Positions 41,693 to 46,039 of a stretch of 64,000 nucleotides of DNA are shown here, one piece after another (positions within the stretch are counted from its first letter, which is position 1; each line of letters opens with the position of its first letter). Under the pieces are notes generated by a model. It had not been told where the DNA came from. It saw only the letters and a list, made by a program, of their open reading frames with translations, and did not search any database. This stretch comes from Verrucomicrobiaceae bacterium (GTDB lineage Bacteria; Verrucomicrobiota; Verrucomicrobiia; Chthoniobacterales; Chthoniobacteraceae). The translations under genes and the position numbers were made by a program. The stretch is from NCBI GenBank assembly GCA_005791535.1, contig SXWH01000232.1, positions 1 to 64,000 on the forward strand, given 5' to 3'.

Positions 41693-42451
41693 ATGAACCG
41701 CAGAACATTTCTTGCCCTTTCCATCGCCGCCGCCATGCCCGCAATTGCCGCCGAAAAAGACACCCGTTGTTTCGAGATGCGCGTTTATTACGCGGCACCC
41801 GGAAAGCTGGACGAACTTCACAAACGCTTTCGTGACCATACCACGAAGCTTTTCACCAAACACGGTATGACGAATGTCGGCTACTGGACCCCCGTCGAGA
41901 ATCCCGAGAACAAGCTCGTTTATGTGCTGGCCTATCCGAATCGCGAGGCCCGTGAGACTTCATGGAAGGCGTTCATGGCCGACCCGGATTGGAAGGCTGC
42001 GCAGAAGGCCAGCGAGGTGAATGGAAAGCTCGTTGCGAAGGTCGAGAGCACCTTCATGAACGCCACCGATTATTCCCCGGAAATCAAGGCTTCGAGCGCA
42101 TCGCCGCGCGTTTTCGAACTGCGCACCTACACCACCACTCCGGGAAATCTCGACCGCATCAATGCACGCTTTCGCAACCACACGACGAAGCTGTTTGCGA
42201 AGCACGGCATGACGAATCTCTTTTACTGGAATCTCCAGCCCGGCCAGCCCGGAAGCGAGAACACGCTCGTTTATCTGCTCGCGCACAAGGATGCCGATGC
42301 GATGGCTGCGTCGTTCAAAGCGTTTCGTGCCGATCCCGATTGGATCGCGGCGAAAGAAGCATCCGAGAAGGAGGCCGGCGGTTCGCTGACCATCCCTGAT
42401 GGTGTGAAATCGGTGCTCATGAGCGCTACCGACTATTCCGAGACGCGATAA
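41693..42451 (+). CDS. Secreted tandem NIPSNAP-domain protein
   Basis: 252 residues. A leader with a twin-Arg (NRRTFLALSIAAAMPAIAA) precedes two NIPSNAP repeats of about 105 residues each: CFEMRVYYAAPGKLDELHKRFRDHTTKLFTKHGMTNVGYW and FELRTYTTTPGNLDRINARFRNHTTKLFAKHGMTNLFYW. NIPSNAP domains form ferredoxin-like alpha/beta barrels; bacterial functions are unknown. The gene ends 9 bases before the diiron-protein gene, so it is probably in the same operon. Confidence 0.88.
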   Translation: MNRRTFLALSIAAAMPAIAAEKDTRCFEMRVYYAAPGKLDELHKRFRDHTTKLFTKHGMTNVGYWTPVENPENKLVYVLAYPNREARETSWKAFMADPDWKAAQKASEVNGKLVAKVESTFMNATDYSPEIKASSASPRVFELRTYTTTPGNLDRINARFRNHTTKLFAKHGMTNLFYWNLQPGQPGSENTLVYLLAHKDADAMAASFKAFRADPDWIAAKEASEKEAGGSLTIPDGVKSVLMSATDYSETR

Positions 42452-42460
42452 CTTTTTGCC

Positions 42461-43141
42461 ATGACTGCGCCATCAAACGCGGCTCTGGAGTACGCAGAGG
42501 CGCTGCTCACTCGCAGTCCGGTTTCGGAGAATCCGTATCTTCGTTCACTTTGCGATGGAGTGATGGAAAGGGACGAATTCGTTCGGAGTCAGCGGCAGTT
42601 CTATTTCGCAGTGCGCTTCTTTTCCCGTCCGATGGCGGCACTGACTGCGCGGCTTCCTGACTCATCCTCAAGGCGGATGCTCGTGCATAATCTCGCCGAG
42701 GAACACGGGCTAGCGGAGGACGGCGTTTTTGAACCCGCGATGGCGCACGACCGCACCTTTGTGGAATTTCTGGGAACCCTCGGTGTGGAAGCCGCCGGAG
42801 TCGCGACGACGAGCGAGGAATCTCCGGTCCGCGCGTTTAATCTCGCCCTGCTGGGTGCGTGCACGAGTGAATCGCCAGCGTTCGCTTTTTCGTGTCTGGG
42901 AGTGATCGAGTATATGTTTGCGGACATCTCGGCGCTTATCGGTGCTGCGGTCGTGCGGCGGGGATGGGTCGCTGCGGAAGACCTCGTCCATTACAAGCTG
43001 CATGCAGAAATCGATAAACGGCATGCCGCGGAGTTCTTTCACTCCACAGGGACGCGCGACAGTGCTGGGATTTTCGCCGGCGTTGAATTCGGTCACCACA
43101 TTTTCGCCGGTTTTTATCGCAGCCTCATCGCGTCGCCATGA
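42461..43141 (+). CDS. Haem-oxygenase-like diiron (HDO/TenA-PqqC fold) protein
   Basis: 226 residues, all helical. Putative metal ligands fit the HDO pattern: E80/E81 (NLAEEHG), E150 (GVIEYMF) and H181-x3-D185-x2-H188 (HAEIDKRH). By eye, the His usually seven residues after the first Glu is replaced by D87. Members include CADD, UndA and SznF-type oxidases that use O2 for decarboxylation, hydroxylation or cleavage. The stop overlaps the desaturase start by 4 bases (ATGA). The local setting suggests a fatty-acid or amino-acid-lipid substrate (inference). Confidence 0.78.
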   Translation: MTAPSNAALEYAEALLTRSPVSENPYLRSLCDGVMERDEFVRSQRQFYFAVRFFSRPMAALTARLPDSSSRRMLVHNLAEEHGLAEDGVFEPAMAHDRTFVEFLGTLGVEAAGVATTSEESPVRAFNLALLGACTSESPAFAFSCLGVIEYMFADISALIGAAVVRRGWVAAEDLVHYKLHAEIDKRHAAEFFHSTGTRDSAGIFAGVEFGHHIFAGFYRSLIASP

Positions 43142-44058
43142 TGGACGCTGCGAAACCCGAAGTGCCGCAGGAGTTGCTGCGGAAACTGCACGCCGTTCAG
43201 CATTGGCGGCACTGGGTTCGGATCATTCTTTTCGTGGCGCTCTACGTCGCAGGCGCCGTCGGTGCTATCTGGATTGCGGCGCGCCACGGATGGTTTTATG
43301 CGATTCCGCTCTACATTCTCGCCGGCGCATCGCTGCACGGAATCAGTCTTTTCACCCATGAAGCTGTTCACGGAACCCTGAGCGCGAATCCTCTCTGGAA
43401 TCGCGTCGCGGGTGCCTTGTGTGCGATTCCGGTTCTTCAAAACTGCAGTGCATATCGAGTCCTGCATCTCCGCCATCACAGACATCTGGGTGATGACGGC
43501 GACCCGGATCATTACGCAAATTACACCCGCTGGAGCTGGTTGATTTTTTCGATGAACTGGCTGCGGCTCATCGCTGGATATCCCGTGTATATCGTCGCGA
43601 TTCCGATCCTCGGATTCAAACACGGGAACGCACGCGACGGGCTCGCCATCATCGCCGAAGTGCTTGCGACTGCAGGCGTCATCATCGGAATTCTCCGCGC
43701 TTCGGTTCCTGCCGCATGGCTGCTTCACGGATGGTTGGTGCCCATGATTTTCATCAACACGATGGTCAATATTCGCGGCATGAGCCAGCACACGCTTCTT
43801 GAGCACACCAGCGATGAGATTCTGGGAACGCGGACGATTTTAACCAGCCGCCTTGTCCGGTTTTTCATGTGCAACGAGAACTATCATCTCGAACATCATC
43901 TGTGGCCGGGAATCCCGTGGTACGGGTTGCCGGCAGCGCATGAAGCCGCCGCTCCGGAGTTGAAGCGGCGCGGTGCGCCATTCATCCGCTCGTACGGTTC
44001 ATTCGTGCGGGAATTCATCATTCGCAGCATTGAACGGAGCCCATGGAGTCGACGGTAG
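43138..44058 (+). CDS. Membrane fatty acid desaturase
   Basis: 306 residues with several membrane segments. Histidine boxes for the diiron site: HEAVH (74-78), HLRHH (110-114) and HLEHH (250-254, in NYHLEHHLWPG), plus extra His at 218 and 223. The layout fits the integral-membrane acyl-lipid desaturase or beta-carotene-ketolase-like group. It is coupled to the HDO gene by an ATGA overlap and overlaps the BtaA-like gene by 16 bases, so the four products are probably made together. Confidence 0.9.
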   Translation: MMDAAKPEVPQELLRKLHAVQHWRHWVRIILFVALYVAGAVGAIWIAARHGWFYAIPLYILAGASLHGISLFTHEAVHGTLSANPLWNRVAGALCAIPVLQNCSAYRVLHLRHHRHLGDDGDPDHYANYTRWSWLIFSMNWLRLIAGYPVYIVAIPILGFKHGNARDGLAIIAEVLATAGVIIGILRASVPAAWLLHGWLVPMIFINTMVNIRGMSQHTLLEHTSDEILGTRTILTSRLVRFFMCNENYHLEHHLWPGIPWYGLPAAHEAAAPELKRRGAPFIRSYGSFVREFIIRSIERSPWSRR

Positions 44059-45107
44059 ATAACTGGCTATCCGAGGCTGCGCAATTGCCGCTGGCCTTCG
44101 CGCAGGTGCGCGAGGATCCGCGAATCGACCTTGCGTGCTGCTCTGGGTTGCGACCGGACGCCACGGTCGTGATGATTGCTTCGGGCGGCGACACCGCAGT
44201 TTGTGTTTCGCGTTTGCCAATAGGGAGGTTGCTCCTCGTCGATATGAACGCGGCACAACTCGCGCTCACACGATGCAAGTTTGCGCTCGCGAAGGACTGC
44301 AATGGCGAGCAATCGATGCGATGGCTTGGCCATTTGCCGCTGGCACCAGACCTTCGGGCGCAGCGAATCGCAACGACTCTCGAATCGCTGGACTTGCCGG
44401 ACGGAGTGCTGGGGCCTTTGGAACGGCTGGCTGCTCTGGGCCCGGATTTCTCCGGACGCTACGAAGCAATGTTTGCAGCGCTGAATCGCGCTCTCGGACC
44501 GTCGTGGGAGATTTTGCAGCGCCTCTTGGAAAGCGCGACTCCTGTAGCAATGCCGAGTCTACCGCAGGTTGATGCCGCGTTCGCCGAGGTTATGTCGCTT
44601 CGGAATCTCGTCGCCTTGTTCGGGGGGGACGCAACCCGGAATCCGAAGCTGCCTTTTGCAGAGCATTTCGCCACGCGCGTGCGCAGCGCGTTTGCTACAT
44701 CAGTGCCGCGACAGAATCCGTTTCTGTGGCAGATGCTCGCGGGAAGGTTTCCGCCGGGCGTTGCGTGGGATTGGCTGGAATCCGACGCTGCACCGGTTGT
44801 GGAGCCGGAGTTCGTTCACGGGTTGATGAAGCCGGTGCTGGACGCGCTGCCTGCGTGCTCTGTGGATTTCGTGCATCTATCAAACATCCTCGACTGGCTC
44901 ACGCCGGCGGCAGCGACAGCGGTGCTCGACAGCGCGGCCCGCGTTTTGAAACAGGGCGGACGGGTGCTGGTGCGGCAGTTGAACTCGAGCCTCGATATCC
45001 CGGCGCTGACCGATGGGATCCGATGGAGCCCGGCGCTCGGGCGCTTGATGCAGTCGAAAGATAGGAGTTTTTTCTACCCGGAGATTCATGTCGGATGTCC
45101 GCTATGA
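44043..45107 (+). CDS. BtaA-like (DUF3419) SAM-dependent 3-amino-3-carboxypropyl transferase
   Basis: 354 residues. N-terminal signature of the family: FAQVREDPRIDL (19-30), VVMIASGGDTAVC (42-54) and LLLVDMNAAQLALTRCKFAL (63-82), then a C-terminal Rossmann part with SVDFVHLSNILDWL. Characterised BtaA moves the 3-amino-3-carboxypropyl group of SAM to diacylglycerol to make a homoserine lipid, which BtaB methylates to the betaine lipid DGTS. No BtaB gene is adjacent. It overlaps the genes on both sides (16 and 13 bases). Confidence 0.83.
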   Translation: MESTVDNWLSEAAQLPLAFAQVREDPRIDLACCSGLRPDATVVMIASGGDTAVCVSRLPIGRLLLVDMNAAQLALTRCKFALAKDCNGEQSMRWLGHLPLAPDLRAQRIATTLESLDLPDGVLGPLERLAALGPDFSGRYEAMFAALNRALGPSWEILQRLLESATPVAMPSLPQVDAAFAEVMSLRNLVALFGGDATRNPKLPFAEHFATRVRSAFATSVPRQNPFLWQMLAGRFPPGVAWDWLESDAAPVVEPEFVHGLMKPVLDALPACSVDFVHLSNILDWLTPAAATAVLDSAARVLKQGGRVLVRQLNSSLDIPALTDGIRWSPALGRLMQSKDRSFFYPEIHVGCPL

Positions 45108-46039
45108 AAGTACGCGTTTTCCAAGAACCGCCGCCGGAGTCGCTGGGCGCGGAATTGGCGCGATTTGAAGCGCAGTTCCGGTATCCGCTTGGCGCGAATG
45201 CCAGCTTCTGCATTTCGCATGGACGCCGTTACATCACATTCTTCGAGGCGATCGGCGCGCCCACTTTGGTCGTGGCGGAACACGATGGCGTTGTGCTTGG
45301 GACGATTGCCGCAGCTTTGCGCCCGCTTCGTTTTCCGGATGGAAGCGTTCACCCCGTTGCGTATCTTGGCGACTTGAAAGTAATGCCGTCCGCCCGAGGT
45401 GGTGTCGTCCTTGCGCGGATGTTTCAGGAGCTTCACACACGCGTTGCGCAGCCCGCCGGAGGAAGGGCTTACGCGGTCGTGATGGATGGAACCGACCGAT
45501 TACCGTCCTCATACACCGGACGGTTGGATATTCCGGCGTTTGCGCGGGCGGGTGGGATCTCCGTTTTGAAAATCGCCGCTGAACCGGGGCGGGAAAACCT
45601 CCGCGAGATTGGACGCGAACAGAGCGAGCAATTCGCGTCTGTCGGATTCCGTCCGCTCGGAGGTCGTGCGGATTCACGTTCGGTCATCGCGCCCGTAGTT
45701 CTGGAAAACGACGATGGCTCGGCGGGCGGGTTGTTGGAAGACACGCGGCTTGCAAAGCGTCTGCTTCTGCCGGACGGCGGTGAAATGCTCGCTGCACATC
45801 TGTCCGGATTCAATTGGCGCCATCCGTGCGATGGTGCCCGGTTTCTCCGCGGAGTGTCGGCCCGGTGCTCGGCGATGGGAGTCCCTGCATTCTTCACGGC
45901 AGTCGCTGCAGGATTCGCCTCCGAATTGTTGGCGGAACTCTCCGGTTGCGATGTGGTGGTGGCGCCGGCGACAATTTTCTCGTGCGGTATTGCAGGGGCC
46001 GCCGAGGTGGACTGGTTCGTGGATACCGCCGAGATTTAA
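45095..46039 (+). CDS. GNAT-like acyltransferase in the DUF3419 operon
   Basis: 314 residues. The first half (about 1-150) looks like a GNAT fold: PTLVVAEHDGVVLGTIAAALRPL, then VAYLGDLKVMPSARGGVVLARMFQEL as the acetyl-CoA-binding region. The second half (about 190-314) is a GNAT-like repeat or partner domain. It could N-acylate the amino group made by the BtaA-like enzyme or another small molecule; that is inference from position. It ends by overlapping the convergent TIM-barrel gene by 4 bases. Confidence 0.7.
   Translation: MSAMKVRVFQEPPPESLGAELARFEAQFRYPLGANASFCISHGRRYITFFEAIGAPTLVVAEHDGVVLGTIAAALRPLRFPDGSVHPVAYLGDLKVMPSARGGVVLARMFQELHTRVAQPAGGRAYAVVMDGTDRLPSSYTGRLDIPAFARAGGISVLKIAAEPGRENLREIGREQSEQFASVGFRPLGGRADSRSVIAPVVLENDDGSAGGLLEDTRLAKRLLLPDGGEMLAAHLSGFNWRHPCDGARFLRGVSARCSAMGVPAFFTAVAAGFASELLAELSGCDVVVAPATIFSCGIAGAAEVDWFVDTAEI

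Follow-up and report, generated by a model that had tools for sequence, protein, structure and literature searches.

What do four overlapping genes make when they bring together a relative of the betaine-lipid enzyme BtaA, two predicted diiron enzymes and a GNAT-like protein? Such a row lies at positions 42461-46039 of the window, the 64,000-nucleotide stretch analysed here, which belongs to contig C219 of a Verrucomicrobiota metagenome-assembled genome (MAG; G000, 5.16 Mb, 87% complete). The four open reading frames (ORFs), all called on the plus strand, overlap by 4, 16 and 13 bp. An earlier sequence-only reading had described these coordinates and overlaps correctly and proposed an operon for a homoserine-type lipid. 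Our follow-up strongly supports a single pathway and strengthens the case for N-acylation by the GNAT-like protein, but does not support orthology to BtaA, and makes oxidation of acyl chains less likely. We find that the genes form a real, horizontally moving module. We propose, at a probability of about one half, that this is a biosynthetic module acting in three steps (aminocarboxypropyl transfer, oxidation and N-acylation), whose product is probably a fatty-acylated, oxidised homoserine-type compound derived from S-adenosylmethionine (SAM) and possibly a membrane lipid. The four genes are:

42461..43141, + strand: haem-oxygenase-like diiron oxidase (HDO), core gene; 226 aa, PF14518 (iron-containing redox enzyme) at 54 bits
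43138..44058, + strand: membrane diiron desaturase/hydroxylase (DES), optional member; 306 aa, PF00487 at 145 bits
44043..45107, + strand: DUF3419 aminocarboxypropyl-transferase-like protein, from a cassette subfamily of BtaA relatives; 354 aa, PF11899 at 82.4 bits (gathering cut-off 28.2)
45095..46039, + strand: tandem-GNAT acyltransferase with a predicted N-myristoyltransferase (NMT)-like fold, core gene; 314 aa, GNAT models below cut-off

The first three Pfam matches all exceed their cut-offs, whereas the GNAT-like protein gives sub-cut-off matches only.

Is the grouping more than chance? A five-sequence DUF3419 alignment, searched against GTDB genomes, returned 78 related loci, and gene order was tallied in the 70 loci with a full-length DUF3419 gene. 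DUF3419, GNAT and HDO genes are neighbours in almost every complete locus, across about ten phyla; the carriers are Verrucomicrobiota, Planctomycetota, Eremiobacterota, Gammaproteobacteria, Rickettsiaceae, Chlamydiota, Dependentiae, Elusimicrobiota, Cyanobacteriota (Pseudanabaena, Leptolyngbya) and Chloroflexota. Organism names come from the titles of MAG records and may be wrong; we do not trust the species labels Akkermansia muciniphila (two records) and Chlamydia trachomatis (one). Carriers in culture include Haloferula sp. BvORR071, Verrucomicrobium sp. BvORR034, Stieleria tagensis and Roseiconus nitratireducens. The order seen in the window, HDO-DES-DUF3419-GNAT, is the commonest (22 of 70), followed by DUF3419-GNAT-HDO (16) and DES-DUF3419-GNAT-HDO (8), and some loci tallied as lacking GNAT hold a shorter copy that fell under the 80% coverage filter. 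Within 100 bp, GNAT follows DUF3419 in 49 of 50 cases, HDO follows GNAT in 25 of 25 and DES follows HDO in 24 of 25. This conserved adjacency shows that the grouping is more than chance. Pairwise identities of the four proteins are also correlated (Mantel r 0.71-0.91, with none of 999 permutations as high), although species ancestry contributes to this, and each partner found is single-copy and inside the cassette in five of six genomes checked. Together with the gene fusion described below, the shared gene set and co-inheritance lend the one-pathway proposal strong support.

The module is rare and patchy: DUF3419 matches occur in 8 of 213 genomes of the window's order, six being cassette-type, and in a sample of 388 genomes of the phylum just 5 carry the HDO. 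The DUF3419 tree mixes phyla, placing Dependentiae with Chlamydiae, and a Mycobacterium plasmid among Planctomycetota, Verrucomicrobiota and Gammaproteobacteria, which points to horizontal transfer. On a plasmid of Mycobacterium riyadhense, DUF3419, HDO and GNAT genes are followed by an MMPL (RND) transporter gene. Viral contigs gave no match, and no desaturase homologue was found on plasmids.

What does the DUF3419 protein do, if it is not BtaA? In the tree, cassette proteins lie across a 100/100 branch from canonical BtaA, for which three rhizobial plasmid proteins, each with BtaB encoded directly downstream, stood in. The two groups share most of BtaA's conserved core residues: E24 and D25 (the ED of BtaA's WEDP), S47, G48 and G49 (SGG), D67, N69, F144, F193, G194, D284, W285, R311, D340, S342 and Y345. 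Three positions differ, F19 replacing tyrosine, R23 tryptophan and T51 asparagine. By its place in the tree the cassette DUF3419 protein (model pLDDT 96.8) is a separate, deeply diverged subfamily and no BtaA orthologue; neither profile nor fold searches turned up a solved DUF3419 structure. Its chemistry would be of the same type as in BtaA, though the acceptor or the mode of binding would have changed, so that diacylglycerol, the acceptor implied by the sequence-only reading, becomes a candidate rather than a proven substrate. The absence of BtaB noted beside the genes extends further: in the 87%-complete genome a BtaB query gave only partial, 28-33% matches to generic methyltransferases and no orthologue, and the flanks of related loci held none apart from one weak match. 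Synthesis of the classical betaine lipid DGTS, with BtaB encoded elsewhere, is accordingly very improbable. DUF3419 homology and the partly shared core speak for it, but the separate subfamily and missing BtaB do not, and an N-acyltransferase and an HDO would be superfluous for DGTS.

The HDO carries a metal-binding motif, E81-H96-E150-H181-D185-H188, that 51 cassette homologues show without variation and that agrees with the motif published for HDOs, E-H-E-H-(D/E)-H (PMC11363339). It shares this complete motif and its fold family with CADD, BesC, SznF, FlcE and UndA, but forms a subfamily of its own, coupled or fused to an enzyme resembling SAM-dependent aminocarboxypropyl-transferases. In two Chlamydiae and two Dependentiae loci, DUF3419 and HDO form a single protein of 606-613 aa (HDO part, E 1e-82 to 1e-85):

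L068:3754-5586, Chlamydiae: DUF3419-HDO fusion
L079:1527-3347, Chlamydiae: DUF3419-HDO fusion
L075:7941-9764, Dependentiae: DUF3419-HDO fusion
L077:7944-9785, Dependentiae: DUF3419-HDO fusion

By profile, the closest solved relatives are CADD/4-aminobenzoate synthase (1e-18) and BesC (2e-11). Characterised HDOs mostly use amino acid substrates, UndA being an HDO that acts on a fatty acid (PMC11363339). The fusion and the CADD and BesC relationship make oxidation of the amino-acid part likelier than the acyl-chain oxidation proposed before. The N-termini of the fusions and of the Dependentiae GNATs are hydrophobic, and signal-like in the fusions, which makes export or anchoring in a membrane possible; export of the fusion to a host is conceivable. 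Ankyrin-repeat-like genes lie close to the L077 fusion.

Could the GNAT-like protein acylate the resulting amine? Its model (pLDDT 95.4) has the predicted tandem GNAT fold of eukaryotic NMT, and its 50 best PDB fold matches in Foldseek are all N-myristoyltransferases (best E 1.1e-11; TM-score by query 0.58-0.65). In 68 of 77 copies the protein terminates in -[EDQ][IV], directly before the stop codon; five of the nine remaining copies run into a contig or locus edge, and the frames of the last four are apparently broken or masked. According to a review, catalysis by the C-terminal carboxylate sets NMT apart from all other GNATs (PMC4964394), and in human NMT1 structures the carboxylate of Gln496 is the base (PMC7048800). 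From the fold matches, the conserved C-terminus and this literature we infer that the protein is an NMT-like N-acyltransferase, probably with NMT-like catalysis, which strengthens the earlier suggestion of a GNAT acylating a free amine. It would differ from eukaryotic NMT in being bacterial, in belonging to a biosynthetic operon and in its acceptor, presumably a small amine and not a protein. The logic of N-acylating an amino acid recalls OlsB/GluB/GlsB aminolipids and FeeM N-acyl amino acids, but no GNAT member matched the acyltransferase family PF13444, and here the amino acid is predicted to come from SAM-derived transfer.

The remaining genes are optional. Of all members the desaturase is the best conserved (mean column identity of 67% over 30 sequences, against 37-49% for the others), and H74, H78, H110, H113, H114, H218, H250, H253 and H254 are invariant, leaving the histidine boxes intact. 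Among NCBIfam families the nearest is GntB, an arginine gamma-hydroxylase, in 30 of 30 members, albeit below cut-off (86 bits against 380); carotenoid hydroxylase is also near. The desaturase may thus act on the amino-acid head and not on an acyl chain, as had been supposed. RtxC is a desaturase-family enzyme that acts on O-substituted homoserine, and by analogy rhizobitoxine-like enol-ether formation by the cassette may be an attractive lead. In genome G004 only a desaturase remnant matching about 90 residues is left (L014:2400-2771) beside intact HDO, DUF3419 and GNAT genes, consistent with the desaturase being dispensable. A PAP2-family phosphatase gene sits exactly between the desaturase and DUF3419 genes in 15 loci, and apart from it no flank gene recurs beyond closely related loci. 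The L008 locus (G073), on a short contig with broken frames, also has a PAP2 gene.

How might these enzymes work together? In the model we favour, the DUF3419 protein would, as its family suggests, move SAM's 3-amino-3-carboxypropyl group onto an acceptor, with diacylglycerol the favoured candidate, giving a homoserine-type amino acid head. The HDO would then oxidise this product with O2, most probably on the amino-acid head or beside it, as suggested by its fusion to DUF3419 and its intact diiron motif. Finally, the NMT-like GNAT would add a fatty acyl group to the amine, its own terminal carboxylate serving as general base; the predicted fold and C-terminus point this way, and such N-acylation would stand in for the N-methylation by BtaB. 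The last two steps may occur in either order. Where present, the GntB-like desaturase/hydroxylase may add a further oxidation and, at other loci, PAP2 may supply diacylglycerol. We lean towards a lipid product because of PAP2, the MMPL gene and the NMT-like acyltransferase.

Several observations weigh against this model. In the cassette DUF3419 protein the tryptophan of BtaA's WED has become arginine (RED), and BtaA's N-terminal extension is lacking. The GNAT resembles NMT in fold at about 12% identity, and the Pfam NMT model matches none of 51 GNAT members. Genome G003 has an orphan cassette-type DUF3419 gene (L015:8166-9269), with no cassette-type HDO, GNAT or desaturase genome-wide. The desaturase and PAP2 being optional, the hints of a lipid do not apply everywhere.

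Some of these points suit a different product. A serious though less probable rival is a soluble small-molecule pathway, yielding a metallophore, an enzyme inhibitor or a signal, in which DUF3419 would add aminocarboxypropyl to a small acceptor, the HDO and GntB-like enzyme would oxidise the amino acid (N-oxygenation, fragmentation and enol-ether formation being examples) and the GNAT would cap the amine. The amino acid substrates of most characterised HDOs, the nearness of the desaturase to GntB and the missing N-terminal extension all fit it, and a patchy, mobile distribution that includes a plasmid is typical of specialised metabolism. Against this stand the PAP2 genes and the mycobacterial MMPL gene, which point to lipids, the predicted resemblance of the GNAT to long-chain acyl transferases, and flanks in which no other biosynthetic gene family recurs outside closely related loci.

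Two further alternatives concern the HDO. That the fatty acyl chains of a homoserine lipid are what the HDO and the desaturase modify, as a UndA-like enzyme and an acyl-lipid desaturase, would find precedent in UndA itself and in the PF00487 membership of the desaturase. We consider it unlikely: the fusion partner of the HDO is DUF3419, not the acyltransferase or desaturase, the latter is nearest GntB and carotenoid hydroxylase, and CADD and BesC are the nearest solved HDOs. The UndA-like assignment is disfavoured, as UndA was not named among the HDO profile matches. A CADD-type, self-sacrificing 4-aminobenzoate synthase serving folate synthesis has next to no probability, even though CADD and 4-aminobenzoate synthases are the best PDB sequence matches and some Chlamydiae carry the cassette. 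The position of CADD Tyr27, which we take to be the sacrificed residue, is Phe or Leu in the cassette HDOs, making a folate role unlikely, and the TIGR04305 score is 28 against a cut-off of 200. We rejected the assignment on these two grounds; it would also leave the constant pairing with DUF3419 and the acyltransferase unexplained.

A bolder version of our three-step model is doubtful, although the same evidence could accommodate it: the cassette would make a new lipid class, N-fatty-acylated and oxidised homoserine ethers, by way of the first bacterial NMT-like small-molecule acyltransferase, and the fused, signal-like version in amoeba-associated Chlamydiae and Dependentiae may be exported and act on host lipids. 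More generally, the module predicts that free-living, symbiotic and plasmid-borne bacteria have a pathway in common, and with it an NMT-like fold in a bacterial enzyme and a new HDO reaction. No description of the module turned up in a library of 5.39 million papers, where DUF3419 appears in four, none with a title or abstract on an HDO or acyltransferase partner. The fusion and the compact three-gene core make the model directly testable by expression in E. coli. A link to phosphate limitation through an upstream pho box found no footing: the E. coli-type consensus, which may not apply here, gave two matches at 3 mismatches, neither of them upstream, with 2.9 expected by chance.

One neighbouring gene in the window lies outside the conserved cassette:

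41693..42451, + strand: double-domain NIPSNAP protein; PF07978 at 126 bits

It ends 10 bp upstream of the HDO gene and is possibly co-transcribed with the cassette; the first homologous loci examined held no counterpart. Small dimeric alpha/beta-barrel-like proteins flank gammaproteobacterial cassettes (L051, L054, L058, L060 and L061) and one in Deefgea.

DUF3419 genes also occur in other company. A plasmid of Deefgea piscis (L112:5598-10118) carries a remote DUF3419 gene together with an HDO of another subfamily and a weakly FeeM-like GNAT (N-acyl-amino-acid synthase; E 0.004, below cut-off), in a row with genes for SpeD (S-adenosylmethionine decarboxylase), an antibiotic-biosynthesis-monooxygenase-like protein and a serine hydrolase. 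This suggests a variant using decarboxylated SAM (aminopropyl transfer), and by this independent parallel, which speaks for our model, DUF3419, HDO and N-acyltransferase have seemingly come together on more than one occasion. A different DUF3419 subfamily, present in Verrucomicrobiota and on a plasmid of Roseinatronobacter, adjoins a PEP/pyruvate-binding protein that is PEP-synthase-like and has genes of UbiA, AMP-ligase or phytol-kinase-like type near it (L016:4890-8857, L017:4378-7837, L115:523-8507), possibly another unreported SAM-derived lipid pathway. On Rhizobium plasmid pMK-2 (L114:832-6080), DUF3419 belongs to a gene row that also encodes ketoacyl-ACP synthase III, a reductase, an MBL-fold protein and a CoF-synthetase-like protein.

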